The notes beneath the pieces were generated by a model. It saw only the letters and a list, made by a program, of their open reading frames with translations. It searched no databases and was not told where the DNA came from. A stretch of DNA of 64,000 nt. Origin: Rubrivivax sp. Lineage in GTDB: Bacteria > Pseudomonadota > Gammaproteobacteria > Burkholderiales > Burkholderiaceae_C. The position numbers were made by a program, and so were the translations under genes. The DNA lies in NCBI GenBank assembly GCA_024641945.1, contig JAHECD010000003.1, positions 1 to 64,000 on the forward strand, written 5' to 3'. Shown piece after piece: positions 7,488 to 19,530 of this stretch; position 1 is the first letter of the stretch, and each line of letters starts with the position of its first letter.

Positions 7488-8398
7488 CGCCCGCGCCGCC
7501 AGACACGGTTGCACTCTGCGCCGGCGGGCCGCGCCTGAGCCCGATCGTCGCGGGGGCCTGGCGCCTGGCCGAGTGGGGGTGGACGCCGCAGGAAGCGCTG
7601 ACCTGGATCGAACAATGCGCGGAGCTGGGCGTGAGCAGCTTCGACCACGCGGACATCTACGGCGGGTATGGCGTCGAAGGCCGCTTCGGCGAGGCGCTGG
7701 CCCTTGCGCCATCGCTGCGGGAACGGCTGCAGATCGTCACCAAGTGCGGCATCAAGCTGATCTCGCCGGCGCGGCCGGCGCATCGCTTCAAGAGTTACGA
7801 CACTTCGAGTGCGCACCTCGTGCGCAGCGTCGATAACTCGCTTCGTGCGCTGCGCACCGACCGCATCGACCTGCTGCTGATCCACCGCCCCGACCTGCTC
7901 ATGGACGCGGGGGACATTGCGCACACCGTGGACGGGCTGAAGCGCGCGGGCAAGGTGCTGCATTTCGGCGTGTCCAACTTCACGCCGGCGCAGTTCGAGC
8001 TGCTCGATGCGGCAACGCCGCTGGCCACGAACCAGATCGAACTGCATCCGCTGCAATTGGCGCCCCTCACCGATGGCACGCTCGACCAGGCCCAGCGGTT
8101 GCAGCGCCGGCCGATGATCTGGTCGCCGCTGGCAGGCGGGCGACTGCTGGGCGGCGACGAGAGCGACGCCGCCCAGCGCGTGCGCTGGGTGCTGGGTTCC
8201 CTGTCGTCGCGCCTCGGCGTGTCGCCGGCAACCCTCGCGTGTGCGTGGCTCCTGCGCCACCCCAGCCGTCCGGTACCCGTGTCGGGTACGCGTCGGATCG
8301 AGGCGCTGCGGCAGGCCGTGGCCGCCCTGTCGCTGCGCCTCGATGCCGAACATTGGTATGAACTCTGGCAGGCGGGGAGCGGGCACGAGGTTGCCTGA
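7484..8398 (+). CDS. aldo/keto reductase
   Basis: A 304-residue NADPH-dependent aldo/keto reductase of the YdhF-like group. The catalytic tetrad is complete: D54, Y59 ([10 protein letters not shown]), K87 (KCGIK) and H134 (LLIHRPD). The C-terminal cofactor loop [12 protein letters not shown] is also present. Physiological substrate unknown. The start is GTG at 7484 overlapping the ychF stop; no better start exists downstream before the barrel begins. About 65 bases separate it from the hybrid kinase. Confidence 0.9.
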
Positions 8399-8464
8399 CA
8401 AGCTGGCTCGGAGGGTGCTTGGTGACCTGTCGCGCAGGGGATGCGCGGTGGTACGCTGATCGGC

Positions 8465-11400
8465 ATGAACCCGATGCCCGAACAGCGGCCCTTGGCGCCG
8501 TCACGCGCTGCCTGGGTTGTGTTGCTGACGGCAGCCGCTTACACGATCGTGGGGTGGCTGGCACTGCAACTCGCGGTCGATTCGGGCTACGCGTCGCCGA
8601 TCTATCCGGCCGCGGGCATCGGCCTTGCGGCCACACTGGCCTTCGGACGCTTTGGTGCCGTGGGTACCGGCATCGGTGCGCTCGCCGTCAATCTGATTCA
8701 CACGGCATCGATTGGGGCGACCGACCCCGTCAGCGCGCTGGTGGTGCCCTTGATCAGCGGCCTGGGCGCCCTGGCGCAGGCCGCGCTGGGCGCCGTGCTG
8801 GTGCATCGTTTCGTGGCGCAACCGCTGACCTTGCGCGAGCCACGCGACATCCTTCGCTTCAGCCTGTTGGGCGGCATGCTCGCCTGCCTCGTCAATTCGT
8901 CGCTTTCAACGGCCGCGCTCGGCATCACCGGCGCCGTTGCGGTCCCCTCGCTGGCTTTCACCTGGTGGACCTGGTGGGTCGGCGATGTACTGGGCGTGCT
9001 GATCGGTGCGCCGATCGCGCTCACCCTCGTGGGGCAGCCCCGCAGCGAATGGATCGCACGTCGCCTGAGCGTGGGCGCGCCGATGCTCGTCGGCACTCTG
9101 ATGCTGGCGGGCGCATCGGCCCTCTTCCAGCACTGGGACCGGCAACGCATGCGCGAGACCTTCGAGCACGGCGCAGCCGACGTCGCAAGCGACATGGCGG
9201 ATCGGCTCAACGTCGCGCTGGGGGCCCTGCAGGCTGTTCACGGGACATTGGCCAGCACGCCCGACCCAGGCCGTGCGGCGCTGCATCAGGCCGCCGACTG
9301 GTGGCTGACACACTCTGCCGGCATCCAGGCTATCGGACTCAGTGAACGCGTGACCCGTTCCGAGGTTCCGGCGCTGGAGGCGCGCGCGCACTCGGAGGGC
9401 CTTGCCAACTACCGTGTCTTCGATCGCGCGGATGCCACTCCCGATGCCGGCGCCGACGTGGTTGCCATTCGGGCTATCGAGCCGCTGGACAGCAATGCCG
9501 CTGCGCTGGGCGTGAATGCGATGTCGATTCCGGCCGCTCGCGAGGCGATGGTGGCGGCCGCACGCACGGGCGAGGCCGTATCGACGCGAGGCTTCCAGCT
9601 GACCCAGGCCGGTCGCGCGGGCGAGACGGGCGCCGTGGTCTATCGGGCGCTGTACCGCGGGGAGCCCACCACCGAGAACGAGCGCATGGCGCAGTGGCGC
9701 GGGGTGGCCTTCGTCACGCTGCAACTCGACCGCCTGCTGCAGTCGAGCAGTGGGCACGCTGGACAGGCGCTGGGTTGGTGCCTCGTGGAGTCGGCCGATG
9801 GCGGGGTTCGGCGGCTCGCGGGCCCGGCAGGCTGCGAGATCCGGTCGCGAACAGACTTCCACCTCCAAAGCGCCCTGTCCTTCGCCGGCCAGCCCTGGGA
9901 ACTCTGGGTCAGCGGCAACTCGCGCGACCTGCCCGGGGGCACGCAATCCGGCGCCTGGCTGTTTTCGCTTGTGGGTCTGGTGGCAACGTCACTGCTGGGC
10001 ATGCTGCTGCTGACGGTGACCGGGCGCGCGCGGCGCATCGAACTCGCGGTCGAAGAGCGCACGCGCGCACTCAGCGGCGAGATCCAGGAACGACGCAGTG
10101 CCGAGGAGGCGCTGCGCGACAGCGAGCAGCGACTGCGCGACATCCTCGACCACGTGCCCATCGGTGTGCTTTTCATCGATACGCACGGCGTCGTGCTCGA
10201 CACGAATCCGAGCCTGTGCCGGATGGTCGGCCGCACCGCGGAGCACCTGCGCAACACGACCGTGATCGAGCTGATCCACCCCGAGGACCGCGAACCCAAT
10301 CGAACAGCCCTTCGCGATCTGTTGGCTGCACGCATGCCGCTCGCGCGGCGCCAGCTGCGGCTGTTGCGCGCGGATGGCGGCGCCGTGACCGTGCGCGCCG
10401 CGCTCAGCCCGCTGCGCGACACCTCCGGGCGTGTGGACCGACTCGTGGTCGTGGTGGAGGACATCACCGAGCATCTGCGCCTGGCCGAGACCGAACGCGC
10501 GCGCGACGAGGCACAAGCGTCGAACCGCGCGAAGAGCGACTTCGTGTCACGCATGAGCCACGAGCTGCGCACGCCGCTGAACGCGATGCTCGGATTTGCC
10601 CAGTTGCTGGGGATGGACCGCCGGCCCGCGCTGGCACCCCACCAGCTGGGCTGGGCCACGCAGATCCAGCATGCGGGGTGGCATCTGCTGGACATGATCA
10701 ACGACACACTCGACCTGTCGCGCCTCGAGGCCGGATTGGTGCAGCTCAATGCGCGCGCGCTCGAACTCGGCCCGATGGTCGATGCAACGATGGCGCTGCT
10801 GTCTGCCGCAGCCAGCAAACGAAACGTACAGGTGGCGGTGGCGCTGGCGCCCGAGGCGCAGGCCGTGATGGCCGACGAGACACGATTGAAGCAGGTGCTG
10901 ACGAACCTGTTGTCCAACGCCGTCAAATACAACCGCGACGGCGGCGAGATTCGCATCAGCTCGCGGCTGGCAGACTCTCAAACGGTAGAAATCAGCGTGC
11001 GCGACACCGGCATGGGCATGTCGTCGTTGCAGCTGGCTTCACTGTTCCAGCCCTACAACAGGCTCGGCCGCGAAACCACCTCGATCGAAGGCACGGGCAT
11101 CGGTCTGGTGATCAGCCGCCGCCTGGCCGAAGCCATGGGCGGGTCGCTCGACGCAACGAGCAGCGAGCACGAGGGTTCGCTGTTCACGCTGTGCCTCCCG
11201 CGCGCCTCGTTCAGCGACACCGGCACGCTCGTCGCCAGCGCAGGCGAGGAGGCCGTACCGCTGTACCAGCGCCGCATCGTGCACTACATCGAGGACAACG
11301 AAACGAACATCGAGGTCATGCGGGGCATCCTGGCGCAGCGGCCGCAGGTCACGCTCGAAGTCTCGATGACCGGACTGGACGGGCTGGCGGCCGTGCGCCA

Positions 11401-11656
11401 GCGCCGTCCTGACCTGATCCTGCTGGACATGCATCTGCCCGACATCGGTGGGCTCGAACTCCTGCGGCACCTCAAACGCGATGACGTCATCGCCGATATT
11501 CCAGTGCTCGTGGTCTCGGCGGATGCCACGCCGGCGCGCATCGAGCAGGCCCTCACGCTGGGCGCGGCCCACTACCTCACCAAGCCGGTCGACCTGGGCA
11601 GCTTCCTGCGCACGCTCGACGAGGCGCTGGCGGAGTTGGATACACGCTGGGGCTGA
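8465..11656 (+). CDS. hybrid sensor histidine kinase (MASE1-CHASE-PAS-HisKA-HATPase-REC)
   Basis: A 1063-residue membrane sensor. Domains in order: MASE1, a block of hydrophobic helices at about residues 10-215; a periplasmic CHASE domain at about 250-430; a membrane helix near 505-525; a PAS domain at about 560-680; HisKA with phospho-acceptor H699 in SHELRTPLNAM; an ATPase domain ending near 910; and a receiver domain with phospho-acceptor D988 in LILLDMHLPD. The ligand is unknown. No response regulator or output gene is adjacent, so it is an orphan whose phosphate must leave the internal receiver through a remote Hpt protein or act within the kinase. Start chosen at MNPMPEQR; an ATG 24 bases upstream is also possible. 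Confidence 0.88.
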   Translation: MNPMPEQRPLAPSRAAWVVLLTAAAYTIVGWLALQLAVDSGYASPIYPAAGIGLAATLAFGRFGAVGTGIGALAVNLIHTASIGATDPVSALVVPLISGLGALAQAALGAVLVHRFVAQPLTLREPRDILRFSLLGGMLACLVNSSLSTAALGITGAVAVPSLAFTWWTWWVGDVLGVLIGAPIALTLVGQPRSEWIARRLSVGAPMLVGTLMLAGASALFQHWDRQRMRETFEHGAADVASDMADRLNVALGALQAVHGTLASTPDPGRAALHQAADWWLTHSAGIQAIGLSERVTRSEVPALEARAHSEGLANYRVFDRADATPDAGADVVAIRAIEPLDSNAAALGVNAMSIPAAREAMVAAARTGEAVSTRGFQLTQAGRAGETGAVVYRALYRGEPTTENERMAQWRGVAFVTLQLDRLLQSSSGHAGQALGWCLVESADGGVRRLAGPAGCEIRSRTDFHLQSALSFAGQPWELWVSGNSRDLPGGTQSGAWLFSLVGLVATSLLGMLLLTVTGRARRIELAVEERTRALSGEIQERRSAEEALRDSEQRLRDILDHVPIGVLFIDTHGVVLDTNPSLCRMVGRTAEHLRNTTVIELIHPEDREPNRTALRDLLAARMPLARRQLRLLRADGGAVTVRAALSPLRDTSGRVDRLVVVVEDITEHLRLAETERARDEAQASNRAKSDFVSRMSHELRTPLNAMLGFAQLLGMDRRPALAPHQLGWATQIQHAGWHLLDMINDTLDLSRLEAGLVQLNARALELGPMVDATMALLSAAASKRNVQVAVALAPEAQAVMADETRLKQVLTNLLSNAVKYNRDGGEIRISSRLADSQTVEISVRDTGMGMSSLQLASLFQPYNRLGRETTSIEGTGIGLVISRRLAEAMGGSLDATSSEHEGSLFTLCLPRASFSDTGTLVASAGEEAVPLYQRRIVHYIEDNETNIEVMRGILAQRPQVTLEVSMTGLDGLAAVRQRRPDLILLDMHLPDIGGLELLRHLKRDDVIADIPVLVVSADATPARIEQALTLGAAHYLTKPVDLGSFLRTLDEALAELDTRWG

Positions 11657-11737
11657 CCGCCCATGGGTCGCCTCGGCGGCGACATGTGGCTAGACTGCGT
11701 GCATGCACGGCACGGCCCTTTTCATCGGTGACCACCT

Positions 11738-11752
11738 CGCACGCAGCGTGCG
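11738..11752. repeat. 15-bp inverted repeat upstream of hpd
   Basis: CGCACGC-A-GCGTGCG is a perfect inverted repeat with a one-base centre, 84 bases before the hpd start codon. A TAGACT -10-like box at 11691-11696 lies upstream, so the repeat would fall in the 5' leader if that box is used. It could be an operator or part of a leader structure. It has no T tract. Confidence 0.35.
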
Positions 11753-11836
11753 CGGTCTTCCGTGCGCTCCCCCGGCCCGGCAAGAAATGTCCGTTCATTG
11801 CCGCTTCATCCAGCCGACTTGCCAAGGAGCAGATAC

Positions 11837-12919
11837 ATGGCCGACCTCTACGACAACCCGATGGGGTTGATGGGATTCGAGTTCGTCGAATTCGCCTCAC
11901 CCACACCGGAGACCCTGGAGCCCCTCTTCGAGAAGATGGGCTTCACGCTGGTCGCCCGGCACCGATCCAAGGACGTGGTGCTTTACCGCCAGGGCGACAT
12001 CAACTTCATCGTCAACCGCGAGCCGCGCAGCCTCGCCGGCTACTTTGCCGCCGAGCATGGGCCGTCGGCGTGCGGCTTGGCCTTTCGCGTCAGGGATTCG
12101 CACAAGGCCTATGCGCGCGCCCTGGAACTTGGTGCGCAGCCGGTCGAGATCCCGACCGGCCCGATGGAGTTGCGCCTGCCCGCGATCAAGGGCATCGGTG
12201 GCGCGCCGCTGTACCTGATCGACCGCTACGAGGACGGCAAGTCGATCTACGACATCGACTTCGAGTTCGTTTCGGGTGTCGACCGCCATCCGCGGGGCCA
12301 CGGCCTGCGCCTGATCGATCACCTCACTCACAACGTGTACCGAGGGCGCATGGCCTTCTGGGCCGGCTTCTACGAGCGGCTGTTCAATTTTCGCGAGATT
12401 CGCTACTTCGACATCAAGGGCGCGCACACCGGCCTGACGTCGAAGGCGATGACGGCGCCTGACGGCAAGATCCGGATTCCGCTGAACGAGGAGGCCTCGC
12501 GGGGCGCCGGGCAGATCGAAGAGTTCCTCATGAAGTTCAATGGCGAAGGCATCCAGCACGTGGCGCTGCTCACGGACGACCTGAAGACGACGATCGACAG
12601 CTTGGCGTTGGCGGGCGTGCCGCTGATGTCCGCGCCCAACGACGTTTACTACGAGATGCTGGCCGAGCGCTTGCCCGGCCACGGCGAGGACGTGGCACAG
12701 CTTCAGACACGCGGCATCCTCCTCGACGGCAGCACATCGGGTGGCCAGCGTCGGCTGCTCCTGCAGATCTTCTCCGAAACGCTGCTGGGCCCGGTGTTCT
12801 TCGAGTTCATCCAACGCAAGGGCGACGACGGGTTCGGCGAAGGCAACTTCAAGGCACTGTTCGAGTCACTCGAACGCGACCAGATCCGCCGCGGGGCCTT
12901 GCAGGTCGACGGCGACTGA
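11837..12919 (+). CDS. hpd: 4-hydroxyphenylpyruvate dioxygenase
   Basis: A 360-residue iron dioxygenase that converts 4-hydroxyphenylpyruvate to homogentisate in tyrosine breakdown. The three iron ligands can be placed: H162 ([13 protein letters not shown]), H241 (GIQHVAL) and E323 ([18 protein letters not shown]). Both vicinal-oxygen-chelate domains are full length. The start is the ATG at 11837, with AAGGAG seven bases upstream (11824-11829); 25 upstream codons are open but lack a ribosome site. No homogentisate dioxygenase or fumarylacetoacetase gene is adjacent, so the pathway is split in this genome. Confidence 0.96.
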
Positions 12920-12938
12920 CAGGCCGCCGGGCCAGCGT

Positions 12939-12960
12939 GCAGGGCACGCGCGCGCCCTGC
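12939..12960 (+). terminator. hairpin after hpd
   Basis: GCAGGGC (12939-12945) and GCCCTGC (12954-12960) form a 7-bp all-matched stem with an 8-base loop, 20 bases after the hpd stop codon. There is no T run after it, so intrinsic termination is doubtful. It could still protect the 3' end of the hpd transcript and separate it from the SOS promoter downstream. Confidence 0.35.
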
Positions 12961-13067
12961 CCGTCATCGGCCCGGGCCGTGGCCGGATGCAGAGGCACCC
13001 GGCGCGAACGCGGAGCTGGCCGCCGCGGTGCGTTCGTGCCCCTCACCGCAATTTGCGAACATCCGGG

Positions 13068-13096
13068 TTGCGCAAAAAACTGTATGTCTATACAGT
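13068..13096 (+). promoter_or_regulatory. promoter overlapping the SOS box
   Basis: TTGCGC at 13068-13073 and TACAGT at 13091-13096 are separated by 17 bases, a sigma-70-like arrangement. The -10 hexamer lies inside the right arm of the LexA-type palindrome, so a bound repressor would block RNA polymerase. This is the only promoter-like sequence seen in front of the two small genes. Confidence 0.6.
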
Positions 13097-13097
13097 T
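13078..13097. promoter_or_regulatory. LexA (SOS) box
   Basis: AACTGTATGTCTATACAGTT has two perfect 8-bp inverted arms (AACTGTAT and ATACAGTT) around a 4-base centre. It contains the CTG-N10-CAG core of the gamma- and betaproteobacterial LexA operator, whose consensus is close to TACTGTATATATATACAGTA. The A+T-rich palindrome stands out in a very G+C-rich neighbourhood. It lies 20 bases before the ATG of a 27-codon gene that has a strong ribosome site. LexA binding is inferred from the match. Confidence 0.85.
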
Positions 13098-13117
13098 GTC
13101 TGCGAATCGAGGTGACC

Positions 13118-13201
13118 ATGAAGACCCCAGCACGCCAGCACTACCGCCCCGGCAACTTCCGCCAACCGAACTGGCTGCGACGCATCTGGCTCTGGTTCTG
13201 A
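13118..13201 (+). CDS. SOS-controlled 27-residue cationic Trp-rich peptide
   Basis: The frame encodes 27 residues: the N-terminal part (MKTPARQHYRPGNFRQP) is basic and polar, and the C-terminal ten residues (NWLRRIWLWF) are aromatic and hydrophobic. There is one Lys and five Arg and no acidic residue, giving a net charge near +6. A Shine-Dalgarno element GAGGTGA (13109-13115) directly precedes the ATG at a good spacing, and the LexA box ends 20 bases upstream. The stop is followed after 14 bases by the 65-codon gene. I do not recognise the family. Short, SOS-induced, membrane-active peptides such as TisB and DinQ of E. coli are functional precedents, but no sequence relationship is claimed. 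It could also be a leader peptide for the next gene. Confidence 0.6.
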   Translation: MKTPARQHYRPGNFRQPNWLRRIWLWF

Positions 13202-13215
13202 CCTTGGGTGCTGCC

Positions 13216-13413
13216 ATGAAAGCGCCCCTGCTCCACCGTGTCCTTGCACGGCCCCCAGACGGCGAACCCCAGACGCCCACAGGCCCGGCGATAGGTGGCG
13301 ACCAGACGTTCGTCTGGCAGAGCCGCTTTGGCCGCATGGTGATCGAGGTGGTGGGCGCCCAGGCCTATGTCAATGGGAAGTTGGTCGAACCGGCCCTTCC
13401 CGAACGGGGCTGA
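13216..13413 (+). CDS. 65-residue protein of unknown function, second gene of the SOS unit
   Basis: The predicted protein is 65 residues: a basic Pro/Gly-rich start (MKAPLLHRVLARPPDGEP) and a compact C-terminal half with alternating hydrophobic residues (FVWQSRFGRMVIEVVGAQAY then VNGKLVEPA), which looks like a small beta-hairpin fold. No membrane segment or signal peptide is seen. The start ATG lies 14 bases after the stop of the 27-codon gene; a weak GGGTG lies before it, so it may depend on translation of the first gene. I do not recognise the family. Linkage to the LexA box suggests a damage-response role. A longer frame in phase extends upstream, but that part has no ribosome site and covers the promoter and the first gene. 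Confidence 0.6.
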   Translation: MKAPLLHRVLARPPDGEPQTPTGPAIGGDQTFVWQSRFGRMVIEVVGAQAYVNGKLVEPALPERG

Positions 13414-13657
13414 CGGCCCTTCCGGCGGCAGCGGAGGCGACAGGCCTACACCGCGGCGGTCCCAGCCGACCATGCAATTCCAGGGCCCGCACTGAAACGA
13501 GCAGTAAGTCACGAAATGGCCGTCTTGCGGGGCGTTGTGTCCTCGCGGCGGACTGTTGCGGCGAATGGCGGCCTCGTCACGAAGACACATCGTGTTTCAA
13601 GTAGAACGCGGGCCCGCACTACCTTTGAGCTTTGAAAACATTCCAGCCCCGCACCTG

Positions 13658-14350
13658 ATGTTCGGTCGATCCAAACCCGTCGTCTTTGATCCCTATAGAC
13701 GGCGCCGCTCCCCCTTTCGCCCCCCTGCGTGGTTGGTACTGCTGCTGAGTGGCGTCGTGGTCGGTGCCGGCGGCGTCATCGTCGCGCAACAGCGCTATCT
13801 TCCGCCTCGCTTGTCGGCCAGCGCTTCCGCGGAACTTCGAAGTGCCTACGATCGCGCCGACGCTGAACGCCTTCGGCTCCAGGCCGCGCTGGCAGCGACC
13901 GAGAAGCGCCTGGCGGCCACGCTGGCAGAGAAGAGCGCTCTCAATGACGACCTGGCCCTGAGCCGCGCCACCGTCGATCAATTGCGCGGGGATCTGACCT
14001 CGGTCGTGGCGTCGCTCCCGCCGGACCCTCGAACCGGCGTCGTCGAGGTACGCGCCGGGCGGTTCTCGTCCGAAGGAGGCCGCCTCATCTACGACGTGGT
14101 GCTGACACGCGAGCGCAATGCCGGCAAACCGATGCCAGGGGTCATGCAACTTCTCGTCGCCGGCGAGACCGAGCGTGGCGCGGAGTCGACCGTGAGCCTC
14201 AAACCGGTGACGCTCTCGGTGTCCGGCCATGAGGTGCTGCGCGGCAGCCTTCCGCTGCCTGCAGGGTTCCGGCCACGCCAGACCACGATCCAGGTGCTTG
14301 ACCGAGGCGCCGGCAAACTGCTCGGCATGCGGGTCCTGCCGGTGAAGTGA
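13658..14350 (+). CDS. DUF6776-like membrane-anchored coiled-coil protein
   Basis: A 230-residue protein with a basic N-terminus (YRRRRSPFRP), one membrane helix at about residues 24-45, a charged heptad-like coiled coil at about 52-117, and a C-terminal beta-rich domain of about 105 residues (GRLIYDVVLTRERNAGKP through RPRQTTIQVLDRG). The C-terminal pattern recalls the Burkholderiales DUF6776 family, usually found near bactofilin genes, but no bactofilin gene is adjacent here. The topology suggests a single-pass inner-membrane protein with its C-terminus in the periplasm. Start chosen at MFGRSKPVVFD; 41 codons are open upstream without a clear ribosome site. Its stop overlaps the next start (TGATG). 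Confidence 0.65.
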   Translation: MFGRSKPVVFDPYRRRRSPFRPPAWLVLLLSGVVVGAGGVIVAQQRYLPPRLSASASAELRSAYDRADAERLRLQAALAATEKRLAATLAEKSALNDDLALSRATVDQLRGDLTSVVASLPPDPRTGVVEVRAGRFSSEGGRLIYDVVLTRERNAGKPMPGVMQLLVAGETERGAESTVSLKPVTLSVSGHEVLRGSLPLPAGFRPRQTTIQVLDRGAGKLLGMRVLPVK

Positions 14351-14733
14351 TGGAACCGTCGACCACTTTGGCCCGTATCCAGGTGGATGCGGATCTGCCC
14401 GACATCACGCCGGCACAAAGCTTGACGGGGTGGCGGCGCGAACTGTGCATCGAGTTACTGGGCGACGGCGGCGCACGGATATTCGTACGCGCCGTTGAGC
14501 GCAGCTCATTCAAGGCGGCCGACCTGCAGCGTGGAGTCCTCTTTCACCGCCTCGATTCGAGGTTCACCGATCTGACAGGGTGCATGCAATCGCAGCACGC
14601 CGAACTCGTACACCTCGCCGAAACGGCACGGCGGTTGCAGCCCGAAAGGGCGAATCTCTTTGTAGCGCTGGAATACGACCGTACGTCGTGGGAGCGTGTG
14701 CAACACGCCGTCGACCGATGGGCGCGCCGCTGA
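14350..14733 (+). CDS. small protein of unknown function
   Basis: A 127-residue soluble-looking protein with no recognised domain, signal peptide or membrane segment. It begins MEPSTTLARIQVDADLPDIT and has a central region (GWRRELCIELLGDGG through RGVLFHRLDSR) that could be an alpha/beta fold. The ATG overlaps the stop of the DUF6776-like gene as TGATG, which supports a coupled two-gene unit and that the frame is real; a GTG one codon earlier is also possible. A function partnered with the coiled-coil membrane protein is a guess from the coupling alone. Confidence 0.5.
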   Translation: MEPSTTLARIQVDADLPDITPAQSLTGWRRELCIELLGDGGARIFVRAVERSSFKAADLQRGVLFHRLDSRFTDLTGCMQSQHAELVHLAETARRLQPERANLFVALEYDRTSWERVQHAVDRWARR

Positions 14734-15154
14734 CGTGCGTGCTTCCGGCCATGGGAAGCCAAAACGGCCAGATGGTGGCGTCCTGGTCTCTCGCCACGCC
14801 CGTCCCCTCCACGCAGGGCAGGCCGGCCATGGCTTCGTTTCGCCGGTGTTCGGCGTCGACTCAACCCGAGGACGACCAGCCTCTCTCAACAGTGAGATTT
14901 TCGGGCTGACACGGCAGATGGGCCGGTGCGTCGAAGGCGGTGCGCTATCGGTTCCGGCATCGAACCAGCAGAGGATCCGGGGCCGCGTACAAAGGGTGGC
15001 CTCGGCGCTGCCGTCCTCGGCGGTGGTACAGCCAGCGGTCGTTCCGCGGCCCGGTAAATCGGCCCAGTTGTCGCTGGTGAACGGGTTCAGCGACCGCCCC
15101 GGATCGAGAGCGCCATTGAAATGTTAGTAATTGCTCTCATGTTCTAGAGTCAAT
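14734..15154. other. 421-base stretch without a convincing gene, upstream of rpoH
   Basis: No frame here has a ribosome site, a recognised domain or credible codon use; the open frames on both strands look like chance frames in G+C-rich DNA. One small hairpin can be drawn: GTCGCTG (15070-15076) with CAGCGAC (15088-15094) around an 11-base loop. The last 40 bases turn A+T-rich and lead into the rpoH control region. The stretch may hold an upstream rpoH promoter or an RNA gene; neither is demonstrated. Confidence 0.5.
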
Positions 15155-15181
15155 TCAGCACTCGCTGGTTGAGAGTGCTAA
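15155..15181. promoter_or_regulatory. CIRCE element (HrcA operator) in front of rpoH
   Basis: TCAGCACTC (15155-15163), nine bases, and GAGTGCTAA (15173-15181) match the CIRCE consensus TTAGCACTC-N9-GAGTGCTAA at 17 of 18 arm positions, the single difference being the second base of the left arm. CIRCE is the operator of the heat-shock repressor HrcA. It ends 42 bases before the rpoH ATG, and a TAATAT -10-like hexamer (15179-15184) overlaps its right arm. This predicts that HrcA represses the sigma-32 gene here. Confidence 0.85.
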
Positions 15182-15223
15182 TATTTGCGGAACCGAAAGG
15201 TACGGGTTAACTCCAAGAGAGCC

Positions 15224-16150
15224 ATGAACGCCAAATCCGCTTCCACTGCCCTGTCTGTCCGCGATCCGTGGTCGATGGTGCCATCGTTGGGCAACCTCGA
15301 TGCGTACATCAGTGCCGTGAACCGCCTGCCGATGCTGACCCAGCAAGAGGAGGTGTCACTCGGCAAGCGCCTGCGCGAAAGTGGAGATATCGAGGCCGCC
15401 GGCCGGCTGGTGCTTTCGCATCTGCGGTTGGTGGTATCCGTCTCGCGCCAGTATCTGGGTTACGGGCTGCCGCAGGGCGACCTGATCCAGGAAGGCAACG
15501 TGGGCCTGATGAAGGCCGTGAAGCGCTTCGACCCGGAACAGGGCGTGCGGCTGGTCAGCTATGCGCTGCATTGGATCCGGGCGGAAATCCACGAGTACAT
15601 CCTCAAGAACTGGCGCATGGTCAAGGTCGCCACGACCAAGGCCCAGCGCAAGCTTTTCTTCAACCTGCGCTCGATGAAACAGGGGTTCCGGGCCGATGCG
15701 GTCGACGGCGACACGCATCGCAATACGTTGACACCGGCGGAGGTCGACATCGTCGCGCGGGAGTTGAACGTCAAGCCTGAAGAAGTTCTCGAAATGGAAA
15801 CGCGGATGTCCGGCGGCGACATTGCGCTCGAGCCGCAGAACGACGACGGCGAAGATGAATTTGCCCCGATCGCGTACCTGGCCGACGACCGCAACGAGCC
15901 GACGCAGGCGCTGGAATCACGTCATCGTGACTGGCTTGCCAGCGACGGCATCTCCAAGGCCCTCGACGTGCTGGACGAGCGCAGCCGCCGCATCGTCGAG
16001 GAGCGCTGGCTCAAGGTGAACGATGACTCGTCTGGTGGCATGACACTGCACGAGTTGGCTGCCGTGTACGGTGTGAGCGCAGAGCGCATCCGTCAGATCG
16101 AAGTGGCAGCGATGAAGAAGATGCGCAAGGCGCTCGACGTCAACACCTGA
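15224..16150 (+). CDS. rpoH: RNA polymerase sigma-32 (heat-shock) factor RpoH
   Basis: A 308-residue group 3 sigma factor. Region 2 is clear (LIQEGNVGLMKAVKRFDPEQG and SYALHWIRAEIHEYILKNWR), followed by the RpoH box QRKLFFNLR near residues 140-148, the hallmark of sigma-32. Region 4 ends with the helix-turn-helix LHELAAVYGVSAERIRQIE. It directs transcription of chaperone and protease genes. Start chosen at MNAKSASTALS (15224) with AAGAGAG upstream; a TTG 39 bases earlier is open but precedes no conserved residues. The CIRCE element upstream suggests HrcA control. The gene converges on the Sco gene with a hairpin between. Confidence 0.96.
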   Translation: MNAKSASTALSVRDPWSMVPSLGNLDAYISAVNRLPMLTQQEEVSLGKRLRESGDIEAAGRLVLSHLRLVVSVSRQYLGYGLPQGDLIQEGNVGLMKAVKRFDPEQGVRLVSYALHWIRAEIHEYILKNWRMVKVATTKAQRKLFFNLRSMKQGFRADAVDGDTHRNTLTPAEVDIVARELNVKPEEVLEMETRMSGGDIALEPQNDDGEDEFAPIAYLADDRNEPTQALESRHRDWLASDGISKALDVLDERSRRIVEERWLKVNDDSSGGMTLHELAAVYGVSAERIRQIEVAAMKKMRKALDVNT

Positions 16151-16180
16151 CGACCGCCATCGCGCATCAGACCGACTCCA

Positions 16181-16198
16181 GCGGCCCTTCGGGGCCGC
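16181..16198. terminator. UUCG-loop hairpin between rpoH and the Sco gene
   Basis: GCGGCCC-TTCG-GGGCCGC forms a 7-bp stem with a TTCG tetraloop, 30 bases after the rpoH stop and 3 bases before the convergent Sco stop. No T tract follows on either strand, so efficiency is uncertain. Position between convergent genes suggests a shared two-way terminator. Confidence 0.55.
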
Positions 16199-16201
16199 GC
16201 C

Positions 16202-16846
16202 TCATTGCGGCTCTGCGAGCAGCAGCTTGATGTCGTGCACGAGCGCCGGTGCGCCGGTGCCGTAGCGTGTGAAGAGACGGACACGGCCCTTCGCGTCAAA
16301 GATGTAAGAGCCGGCCGTGTGGTCCATCAAGTAACTGCCTTCGGTCTTGCCCGGCACCTTGGCAAAGAAGACCTTGAAGTTGCGCGCCACCGTCTTGATC
16401 TCGTCGAGCGTTCCCGTGAGCGCGACGAAGCTCGGATCGAAGGCCGTGACGTAGGCCTTGAGGATTTCTGGCTTGTCGCGCTCGGGGTCGACCGTGACGA
16501 ATACGCCTTGCACTCGCGCACCGTCGGCGCCGAGCTCGCCCTTCACCGCCGCCAGCTCGGCCATCGTGGTGGGGCAAACATCCGGACACTGCATGTAGCC
16601 GAAGAAGACGACGGTGACCTTGCCCTTGAAATCCGCCAGCGTGCGGCGATTCCCGTCGGCATCGGTCAGGGACAACTCGCGTGCGTAGTCCGCACCGGTG
16701 ATGTCGATCGACTTGAACGGCTCGCCGTGCTTGGGTGGCGCAGCGTCTGCACCTGTCGTACCGCCCTGGCGATTGCAGGCACCCAGCATCGACGCCAGTC
16801 CGACGACGAACGATGCAATCACGAGACGACGAAAGAGGCTATCCAT
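16202..16846 (-). CDS. Sco/SenC copper chaperone for cytochrome oxidase
   Basis: A 214-residue thioredoxin-fold protein that delivers copper to the CuA site of subunit II. The copper ligands are present: CPDVC at residues 87-91 and H176 in MDHTAGSY. An N-terminal hydrophobic segment ends in MLGACN, giving a lipobox-like LGAC, so it is probably a periplasmic lipoprotein. The start [10 protein letters not shown] lies inside the end of ctaB with a 28-base overlap. It is the last gene of the ctaA-ctaB-Sco group, which is standard for betaproteobacterial oxidase clusters. Confidence 0.92.
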
Positions 16847-17739
16847 GGGCTTAGGTAGTGGTCCAGCAACAGAGCCGCAAACAACAGCGACAGGTGCCAG
16901 ATGGAAAATCGAAAGGTCTTCCGCGCCAAGGCGTCGCTGTAATCGCGCCAGAGCTGAAAGGCATAGAGGATGAAACCCGCGCCGAGTACGACGGCTGCAG
17001 CCAGGTAGAGATACCCGCTCATGCGAAAGACGAAGGGCAACAACGTGGCCGCAAAAAGCACCAGCGTATACAGCAGCACCTGCAGACGCGTGAATTCCGA
17101 CCCATGGGTAACCGGCAGCATCGGTAGACCCGATTTGCGATAGTCCTCCACGCGGTACAGCGCCAGCGCCCAGAAATGTGGTGGCGTCCAGAGGAAGATG
17201 ATCAGGCACAGGATCAACGCCTCGGGGCCGACATCGTTGCGCATCGCGGCCCAGCCCAGAACGGGTGGCATCGCTCCCGACGCGCCGCCGATCACGATGT
17301 TCTGTGGCGTCAGCGGCTTGAGTACCACCGTGTAGACGACGGCATAGCCGACGAAGGTGGCGAAGGTGAGCCACATCGTGAGCGGGTTGACCCAAAACCA
17401 CAACATTGCGCTTCCCGCACCGCACAGCACACCCGAAAAGCTGAGCGTCTGCGCCAGACTGAGTTCGCCCTTGGCAGTGGCGCGCCACGCCGTGCGCGCC
17501 ATGCGGGCGTCGATCTGTTGCTCGATCAGGCAGTTGAACGCCGCAGCTGCACTGGCGACCAGCCAGATGCCCGCGGTCGCGGCGCCTGCCAGCCGCAAAT
17601 CGGGCAGGCCGGGCTCGGCGAGCAGCATGCCGATGACGGCGCAGAAGACGATCAGCTGCACCACGCGCGGCTTGGTCAACGCGTAGTACTGCGACCAACG
17701 CGAAGCGCTCGGCTGGGGTCGTGCAAGGGTCTGCGACAT
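16819..17739 (-). CDS. ctaB: protoheme IX farnesyltransferase (heme O synthase)
   Basis: A 306-residue UbiA-family prenyltransferase with about nine membrane helices. It adds the farnesyl group to heme b, giving heme O, the precursor of heme A for the aa3 oxidase. The polyprenyl-binding motif is seen in [19 protein letters not shown] near residue 70. The start [11 protein letters not shown] at 17739 lies 13 bases after ctaA; the 16 codons open upstream overlap ctaA and look non-coding. The end overlaps the Sco gene. Confidence 0.95.
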
Positions 17740-17752
17740 GGAAGGAGAGATT

Positions 17753-18895
17753 CTAGGCAGGCGTGTTCGGCAACGCCCGCAGGTCATGGCTGGCGGCAGG
17801 TGAGCGAGCGAACAGACGCGCCAACAGCGACGCCGTCACGCCGACCATGGCCGCCGCGCCCGCCGTATGTGCCAGGGCCGCGATGAGCGGCCATCCCAAC
17901 ACGACGTTGGACAGCCCACTCGCGAGTTGCCACAGGGCGAGTGCAGCCAGCGTGAGGGCATAGCGCCTCGGTACGGCACCCCCAGCGGCATGCAGCCGCC
18001 ACGCGAATGCCAGCATGGCCGGCAGCAACAGGAAAGCAAAGATCCGATGCACCATGTGCACCGCCACCAGCGCCTCGCGCGAGAGAAAACCTCCATGCCC
18101 GGCGCGCCCGAGCTCGCGCAGCAGCGTGAAGCCTTCGGCGAAGTTCATGTTCGGCCACCACTGGCCATCACATTGCGGGAATCCGGTGCACGCCAGCACG
18201 GCGTAGTTGGTGGACACCCATCCTCCGAGGGCCATCTGGACCCAAACCATCCCAGTGACGAGGTACGCGCCGCGCGCGAGCGCGGGCGTCAAGGACAGTG
18301 GCTGACTCCGCCACGCCTCACGCTGCACGACGAGCAGCGCGAGAAGAACCAGGCCGCCCAGAAGATGCAGGGTGACGATGGCCGGATAGAGCTTGAGCGT
18401 CACGGTGAATTTTCCGAACAAGCCCTGCACGATGACCCAGGACAGCGTTGCGGTCGACCACCATGGCGACAGTGGAAGGCGCCGCCTCTCGATCCAGGCC
18501 ACAACGGCAGCCACGAGAATCAAGGCCCCCACGATCATGGCGAGATAGCGATGGATCATCTCTATCCACGCCTTCGCAAACGTGACCGGGCCCGTCGGCA
18601 TCGTGGATTGCGCCGCGTGGATCTCATCATGCGCGCCGAATGGGCTGGCCTCGGCATAGCACCCCGGCCAATCCGGACAACCAAGTCCCGAATCGGTGAG
18701 CCGTGTGAAGGCGCCGAAGACGATGAGGTCGAAAGTCAGAAAGGCCGTGAATGCCGTCAGCGCCGCAACGCGCCAGGCCACGTCCTTGCCGCGTTGTCGT
18801 CGCCAGACCCAGGCGAGTGGCAACAGCGTCAGCATGCCTGCCCAAAGCGCCATGCGCAGGGCCGGCGAAAAGTCGACGAGCGCCCCTGCCTGCAC
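17753..18895 (-). CDS. ctaA: heme A synthase (COX15/CtaA family)
   Basis: A 380-residue membrane protein with eight helices that oxidises heme O to heme A. Conserved histidines are visible in [26 protein letters not shown] and LAHTAGAA, and the paired extracytoplasmic cysteines in [11 protein letters not shown] and [12 protein letters not shown]. The start is taken as GTG at 18895, two bases after the stop of the preceding gene, which keeps the LVDFSPALR segment typical of relatives; ATG at 18852 is the alternative. It lies between the Sco-like membrane gene and ctaB. Confidence 0.93.
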
Positions 18896-18897
18896 GG

Positions 18898-19530
18898 TCA
18901 GCGTCCCGCGGTGTCCCAGCCGGCTGAGGCCCGCAGCAGGCGCTCCAGGTCGCGCTTCAGCCGCATGGGGTCGGGATCGCGGGGCGTTCGCATCATCCAC
19001 TCGCCCATGGGATCGACGATGTACAGATGATCTTCCAGAGCCTGGCCCTTTTCGGGTTCCAGCCAGCGCGCGAGGTCGGCACGCGGCACACGCAGGACGT
19101 GAGCCGCCTCGCCGCGGCCGAGCGCCGCCAGAAGTTCGGGCTTCACCGGCAGGTCGTCGTCGATCAGCCAAACGCGGTCGACGCGGTCGCGGTCGCGGCC
19201 CATCATTTCGCGCCACTGCCTCTGGACGAACAGGCGCCTGTCGCAGGCGGCGTCGCAGGCGCCCGACCCGACCGAGATCAGCAGCCACTGCCCCCGCAGG
19301 CTCTTCGCCACGACAGAAGCGCCCTGGAGGTCGCGCACGGGCAAGGCATCGGGCAAGGGGCGCGTGGGCAGGATCAATGTGCTGTAGTTGGTGCGACCTT
19401 CGGGCCGGATCACGAAATACGTCAGATAGGACGCCACTACCGGTGCCGCGCAGACCGCCAGCACAAGCAACATCTTGATGCGTCCGGACGTTGTGCGGCG
19501 GCCCAGCGCTTGTGCATCGACCGTGGGCAT
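18898..19530 (-). CDS. Sco-like membrane protein of the oxidase cluster
   Basis: About 210 residues with one N-terminal membrane helix (KMLLVLAVCAAPVVASYLTYFVI) and a periplasmic domain of thioredoxin type. It has a CxxxC pair in GSGACDAACDRRLF, resembling the Sco copper motif, but the paired histidine is not evident. Proteins of this kind are regularly found between surf1 and ctaA in Burkholderiales and are thought to help oxidase assembly; the exact role is not known. The start is uncertain: ATG at 19530 follows the SURF1 stop, while ATG at 19608 would add 26 residues overlapping SURF1. Confidence 0.8.
   Translation of the reverse strand: MPTVDAQALGRRTTSGRIKMLLVLAVCAAPVVASYLTYFVIRPEGRTNYSTLILPTRPLPDALPVRDLQGASVVAKSLRGQWLLISVGSGACDAACDRRLFVQRQWREMMGRDRDRVDRVWLIDDDLPVKPELLAALGRGEAAHVLRVPRADLARWLEPEKGQALEDHLYIVDPMGEWMMRTPRDPDPMRLKRDLERLLRASAGWDTAGR

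Follow-up and report, generated by a model that had tools for sequence, protein, structure and literature searches.

The window analysed here is a stretch of 64,000 nucleotides from Rubrivivax sp., and at 13,068 to 13,413 it carries a promoter overlapped by a LexA-type operator, a ribosome binding site and two small genes, which we call ORF1 and ORF2. The promoter, the box, the ribosome site, the genes of 27 and 65 codons and the 14-base gap from the ORF1 stop to the ORF2 start were all found where a preliminary description of this DNA had placed them. The features are as follows.

13068..13073, + strand: -35 element TTGCGC, read directly; across 62 ORF1 promoters, its TTGC stays equidistant from the box
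13078..13097 (core 13080-13095), + strand: LexA operator AACTGTATGTCTATACAGTT, from direct reading and matrix score
13091..13096, + strand: -10 element TACAGT, which the right operator half supplies; homologous promoters keep the register
13109..13115, + strand: ribosome binding site GAGGTGA, read directly
13118..13201 (27 codons and stop), + strand: ORF1, a 27-residue cationic microprotein, MKTPARQHYRPGNFRQPNWLRRIWLWF, from the 31-row alignment A5 and dN<dS
13216..13413 (65 codons and stop), + strand: ORF2, 65 residues, a flexible tail and a predicted five-strand beta core (residues 22-57), from alignment A4, dN<dS and AlphaFold2

The operator has the layout AACTGTAT-GTCT-ATACAGTT over 13078-13097, with perfect 8-bp arms, and TTGCGC is separated from TACAGT by a spacer of 17 bases. 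Over 62 promoters of ORF1 homologues, this arrangement (TTGC-N2-N17-TACAGT) lies in a preserved register relative to the box, and the TTGC of the -35 element recurs with base counts of T54, T48, G53 and C49. Since the register is constant, LexA would cover the -10 element. A simple scan of 12900-13700 called no sigma-70 consensus promoter, and no terminator was called over the same interval. An operator of the CTGT-N8-ACAG type, lying over a promoter, is present at 13078-13097; this motif is described as valid for most beta-proteobacteria, and the consensus is given for the beta and gamma classes (PMC3323433).

The preliminary description had called the box LexA-like for its perfect arms and CTG-N10-CAG core and had proposed scoring it with a betaproteobacterial LexA matrix. 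We used a matrix independent of the finding, for which 30 lexA promoters of the window's genus supplied 58 sites (45 distinct); a LexA match was present in 41/41 genomes searched, 30 loci were used, and one doubtful site of 1.7 bits was retained. The box scored 23.9 bits, the best site of the window, with the second-best in the 64 kb at 11.4 bits, and its assignment to the LexA type was thus confirmed. With the same matrix, the genome's own recA box reached 16.8 bits and its imuA box, just ahead of the imuA start, 24.4 bits, while its lexA has two boxes. The loose core CTGTN8ACAG occurs at 11 sites in the 5.0-Mb genome versus 24 for the reversed control pattern; as it is not enriched, the core by itself says little, and the matrix was used instead. 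Among these 11 sites, TAT and ATA arms are both present only in that of the window. When up to two mismatches were allowed, CTGTATN4ATACAG gave one occurrence in the window, an exact one, for 0.23 expected, and at least one occurrence in 22/100 shuffled windows.

Two further LexA-like boxes were noted elsewhere. One, CTGTACAGGCATACAG (L023, G000:C198, box at 2055), lies about 200 bases ahead of a frame for a TIR-domain protein, and the other, CTGTTTTTTCATACAG (L022, G000:C157, box at 1975), falls inside a frame with phage-type integrase domains, in its upstream part. Integron integrases under SOS control are known.

Judging coding and regulation from the sequence, we consider it near certain that ORF1 and ORF2 are real genes. 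Only pairs at 72-99 percent DNA identity were used for dN/dS, and among these pairs, which are not independent, dN was lower than dS in 15/15 usable pairs for ORF1 and in 18/18 for ORF2. Homologues of ORF1 are 26-40 residues long. In alignment A5 (31 of 32 candidates, with L038 excluded and L082 retained), M1, P11, P17 and W26 are invariant, and tryptophan is the second-to-last residue in 31/31. All 31 carry a net charge of +3 to +6, and none has a transmembrane-like 19-mer (top 19-residue hydropathy mean, 0.10; none reaches 1.6). The last 11 residues have a favourable interfacial energy, with a median of -4.85 kcal/mol.

Alignment A4 of ORF2 comprises 48 rows out of 58 distinct candidates. 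Three were excluded as near-duplicates of retained rows (L002, L006, L038), one because its start is uncertain (L076), and six as lacking a good start, weak or partial (L012, L017, L066, L085, L090, L091); L082 was kept off the ORF2 list by an in-frame stop inside the ORF2 frame. The 48 homologues have an average net charge of about -2.9. In the AlphaFold2 model of the window's copy, pLDDT block means are 88-90 over residues 31-60, and this copy is predicted to be all beta. The tail carries QxxLxL in 36/48 homologues (shuffled tails: mean 2.0, maximum 6) and the wider [QEH]xxLxL in 44/48 (shuffled: mean 5.0, maximum 10); QLxLxL itself occurs in 5/48, position 2 being variable. In the window, ORF2 has QTPTGP in place of its relatives' QxxLPL, and the motif is also missing from ORF2 of L007, L060 and L089. 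Four UmuC partners that were inspected carry QATLDL, QGELAL, QSELDL and QGELDL in their C-terminal part.

ORF1 was found in 45/60 genomes of the genus and, at E up to 0.01, in 60/299 genomes of the family, spread over 35/141 genera; without seven weak matches, the family count is 53/299. Among 300 genomes of the order, it gave three matches, namely the window's own genome, one of the same family and one weak partial match. ORF2 was present in 17/61 relatives, every one in the window's genus, and in 27/299 family genomes from 20/141 genera, a few of these matches being weak or partial, while among the 300 order genomes, at least 9 of them listed as the same family, it was found in the window's own genome only. 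Thirty-six ORF2 loci lie on named contigs, with labels including Rubrivivax, Rhizobacter, Piscinibacter, Methylibium and Aquabacterium. Some genomes hold several copies of the ORF2 family, such as Methylibium rhizosphaerae C1-9, with three scaffolds (L036, L038, L056), and G106, with four matches.

The LexA box is kept together with both genes. Counting each distinct 80-base stretch once, we found sites of at least 12 bits (lexA matrix) in 63/69 stretches upstream of ORF1 and in 56/61 upstream of ORF2, against 1/707 and 1/463 control windows, respectively, from the same loci. A LexA-type box (CTG-N10-CAG with at least three of six inner bases) lies upstream of 62/63 first-in-unit ORF1 copies and of 57/62 ORF2 homologues, the remaining five having none. 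The preliminary description had named the joint conservation of frames and box in related genomes as a sequence-based test of its reading, and these counts are in agreement with it. The simple pattern with at least three inner bases, sought within 350 bases upstream, gave 29/31 for ORF1 (control windows, 1/267), 46/48 for ORF2 (0/395) and 19/19 for stand-alone ORF1 (1/75). The operator is thus conserved with its gene across species. Furthermore, at least two matrix sites are present in 29/63 ORF1 promoters, and 23 pairs are spaced by exactly 18 bp, which points to a tight repression of ORF1; no second matrix site was seen in the window's own promoter.

Regarding gene order (ARRANGEMENTS), ORF1 is upstream of ORF2 in 30 of the 62 ORF2 loci and downstream in 7; the remaining 25 have no ORF1 nearby. 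Out of 70 non-redundant ORF1 homologues, 63 are the first gene of their unit and the other 7 come after ORF2; in 34/70, no ORF2 is nearby. The two-gene unit that had been proposed therefore holds for the window but not as a fixed unit, since ORF1 is wider than ORF2, often stands alone and can swap places with it. Within the family, ORF1 is present in 18/27 genomes with ORF2 versus 42/272 others (Fisher p = 3e-8, uncorrected for shared ancestry), which leaves 9/27 ORF2 genomes without it; within the genus, it is present in 16/17 versus 13/20 (p = 0.037, likewise uncorrected for shared ancestry). The spread of ORF1, and the fact that ORF2 mostly occurs with it, suggest that ORF2 was added to the more widespread component, ORF1.

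It had also been stated that no known SOS gene is adjacent. This is correct in the window, as lexA, recA, Pol IV and imuA are on other contigs, but not in some relatives, where umuD-umuC follows ORF2. We counted umuC after ORF2 in 9/62 ORF2 loci; a umuD homologue follows ORF2 in nine loci, the umuC start being visible in eight and the ninth contig ending earlier. By Pfam, L043 has both UmuD and UmuC, L053 has UmuD and L057 has UmuC. No CTG-N10-CAG site lies within 450 bases past ORF2 in any of the nine umuD loci, which suggests one LexA-controlled transcript running from ORF2 into umuD-umuC. UmuC was not found in the window's own genome, whose two Y-family matches are Pol IV and a weak match beside imuA.

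Several observations concern the surroundings of these genes. Directly after umuC of the ORF1-ORF2-umuD-umuC unit of L043 lies a frame of 274 residues (L043:5130-5954), uracil-DNA-glycosylase-like by eye and with no NCBIfam match. An ORF2-umuD unit is found on a contig labelled as a Silanimonas sp. MAG (L041), and its umuD shares 76 percent identity with the umuD on a Rubrivivax-labelled contig, reflecting either horizontal transfer or a binning error. ORF2 adjoins a conserved relaxase-type gene in five loci (by Pfam match in L075, by similarity to L075 in the rest); in L072, L075, L080, L085 and L094, ORF2, which has a LexA box of its own, neighbours MobC-like and relaxase-type genes, and these loci may thus be mobilisable elements with an SOS gene. 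An SRAP gene is near ORF2 in L060, and L038 and L056 hold related frames. In the window, the frame at 13655-14350, on the same strand after ORF2, has a sub-threshold DUF6776 match (E 0.00095) and no NCBIfam match, and we saw no sign of its being part of the SOS unit. Insertion linked to tRNA genes was rejected, as a tRNA gene occurs in 8/56 loci scanned.

In Pfam, NCBIfam, PADLOC and PHROGs, both proteins are indeed unrecognised, as had been described, except for weak matches that mostly concern a single member and that we take as chance. For ORF1, these are PglL_A (Pfam, window copy, E 0.19) and four PHROGs families with one member each among the 31 homologues, best phrog_10931 at 0.003; the 31 homologues had no NCBIfam and no PADLOC match. 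For 16 ORF2 proteins, they are S4 in Pfam (searched at E up to 1; one member only, E 0.075), VioB in NCBIfam (one member, 0.13), PDC-S05 in PADLOC (one member, 0.0073) and four PHROGs families with one member each, best 0.16; the window's ORF2 had no Pfam match. Neither of the window's two proteins matched the SulA profile. The best PDB sequence-profile match of ORF2, GAPDH at 0.044, is likewise attributed to chance, ORF2 had no clear structural relative among the 486 chains compared, and its derivation from a piece of UmuD was rejected (hhalign probability 0.3 percent). ORF2 gave no match in plasmids or phages (one homologue as query for both) or in viral contigs, and ORF1 none in phages and one poor match in plasmids, inside tss genes. 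On these searches, a phage, plasmid or viral origin was rejected. In the literature covered, outside which most subscription papers fall, nothing was recognised as the ORF1/ORF2 pair. The claim of an undescribed system thus becomes that of an apparently undescribed conserved pair of LexA-controlled microproteins, with ORF1 as the core.

Considering all the above results, the stretch is almost certainly a LexA-repressed SOS transcription unit that would be induced on DNA damage. In the undamaged cell, a LexA dimer would sit on the operator that doubles as the -10 element and so block the promoter; upon damage, RecA-stimulated self-cleavage of LexA would free the promoter, and both microproteins would be made. 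What they may do is a more tentative matter. For ORF2, we put forward a role as an accessory factor of translesion synthesis, a suggestion that we prefer for this protein but hold to be less likely than not, and that draws on its apparent shared LexA transcript with umuD-umuC in some relatives and on its usual QxxLxL tail, a motif of the sliding-clamp type, beside a small beta domain. With its QTPTGP, the window copy is not covered by the clamp idea, and here the beta domain, or an action on ORF1, may be what matters. As the wider and main component, ORF1 is possibly a tightly repressed cationic checkpoint peptide, an assignment that we regard as slightly more doubtful than that of ORF2. Its C-terminus, P-x-W-L-R-R-x-W-x-W-[FL], would dock on a membrane surface or a protein partner, and the docked peptide might hold back growth or division during repair. 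This role is proposed by analogy and from the want of a clear SulA: the SulA profile (PF03846) has no match in the window's genome and matches in 21/299 family genomes, 15 over the cut-off with a best E of 2.6e-6. Twenty of these 21 lie in open frames of 246-387 residues, and the one that was classified is ImuA; the window's own ImuA is also a weak SulA match. Taken as a whole, a LexA unit with ORF2 as translesion accessory and ORF1 as checkpoint peptide is the best explanation we can offer, and we rate it slightly short of evenly balanced.

A rather unlikely alternative is that ORF1 is a membrane-active SOS toxin of the TisB/DinQ type, for which there may be an RNA antitoxin, while ORF2 is a protein that binds ORF1 as antidote or partner; the outcome would be growth arrest and persistence, not a division checkpoint. 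The 27 residues of ORF1, as in DinQ, its positive charge and its Trp-rich interfacial C-terminus are consistent with such a peptide, as are the negative charge of ORF2 and its occurrence mostly with ORF1, and the tandem operators suggest a harmful product. However, none of the 31 ORF1 homologues has a transmembrane-like stretch, and with 34/70 ORF1 copies having no ORF2 near, ORF2 cannot be an antidote whose linkage is obligate. Nor do we find a sign of the RNA: the predicted folding of the transcript region does not exceed that of shuffled sequences (z 0.40) and Rfam gave no match at gathering scores over 11000-16500, for which reasons a known RNA at the locus was also rejected.

ORF2 could instead be a DinI/ImpC-like modulator of RecA or of UmuD cleavage, by which the SOS response would be tuned, with ORF1 as a small co-factor. 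A small acidic protein encoded just ahead of umuD in one LexA unit recalls the impCAB layout, and the five loci with adjoining relaxase-type genes would fit this picture. Yet none of the 16 ORF2 proteins matched the DinI profile in Pfam, and the all-beta model of the window's ORF2 differs from DinI, which has an alpha/beta fold, so that we judge this reading improbable. That ORF1 is a leader peptide controlling translation of the next gene, with no functional product of its own, might be thought from its short, Trp-rich sequence ahead of another gene in the window. It is very hard to sustain against amino acids conserved through divergent DNA, a fixed C-terminus, and copies that have no ORF2 near or come after it. 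Finally, a chance palindrome with spurious small frames, for which one may cite the lack of enrichment of the loose core and the 138 frames of at least 25 residues in 8000-19000, is a practically negligible possibility given the conservation counts of frames and box, the dN<dS results and the matrix scores.

Beyond the explanation that we prefer, a LexA unit with a translesion accessory and a checkpoint peptide, one may imagine that the SOS response has a further, unannotated arm throughout the family. In it, ORF1 would be the missing checkpoint peptide of a family with no clear SulA, one with no transmembrane helix, and ORF2 a mobile clamp-docking adaptor that couples ORF1 to umuDC polymerases and mobilisable elements; we consider this extension unlikely.

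ORF1 and ORF2 are new families, while the kind of system, small SOS genes under LexA control, is already known. On our reading of the locus, they belong to the bacterial response to DNA damage and would have been overlooked there. Gene callers often skip proteins of fewer than 30 residues, and a conserved SOS gene can for this reason stay unseen over dozens of genera. ORF1, found in most genomes of the genus and putatively under tight LexA control, is a directly testable candidate for what restrains division after DNA damage in a family with no clear SulA. Likewise, ORF2, apparently on one transcript with umuDC in some relatives, could be a new part of the mutagenic-polymerase machinery.

Several known systems invite comparison. 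The clamp-binding tail of the Hda type is QLxLxL. The flexible N-terminal Q-x-x-L-x-L of most ORF2 homologues, a putative clamp-binding motif, resembles it, but ORF2 is far smaller, its position 2 varies and the window copy is without the motif. In impCAB of plasmids, a small ImpC gene lies ahead of UmuDC-like polymerase genes in one LexA unit. In some relatives, the ORF2 gene too precedes umuDC-type genes in one apparent LexA unit; in contrast, ORF2 has no DinI family match, is predicted to be all beta and usually has a clamp-type tail. Additional accessory proteins are a feature for which impCAB is cited (PMC7092418). The hypothetical-protein genes hypA and hypB are predicted to be LexA-controlled in beta-proteobacteria, hypA reportedly having no homologues beyond multi-chromosome beta-proteobacteria and hypB being exclusive to Burkholderia (PMC3323433). 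The distribution of ORF1 and ORF2 looks different from that described for hypA and hypB, whose identity with ORF1 or ORF2 is conceivable. DinQ (27 residues) and TisB of Escherichia coli are SOS-induced small membrane peptides, DinQ being under antisense RNA control (PMC3567139). ORF1 shares the size of DinQ and a LexA-type control; DinQ, however, is a hydrophobic single transmembrane peptide, whereas ORF1 is a hydrophilic protein whose Trp-rich tail is interfacial, and its region had no RNA match in Rfam. As a short peptide under a LexA operator, ORF1 agrees with the SidA/DinQ/TisB type, but it is without the transmembrane helix. SidA of Caulobacter crescentus is a LexA-controlled division inhibitor of 29 residues that is made on DNA damage, resides in the inner membrane and acts on FtsW (PMC4211646). 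ORF1, which has no transmembrane-like stretch, is like SidA a microprotein of fewer than 30 residues under a LexA-type operator.
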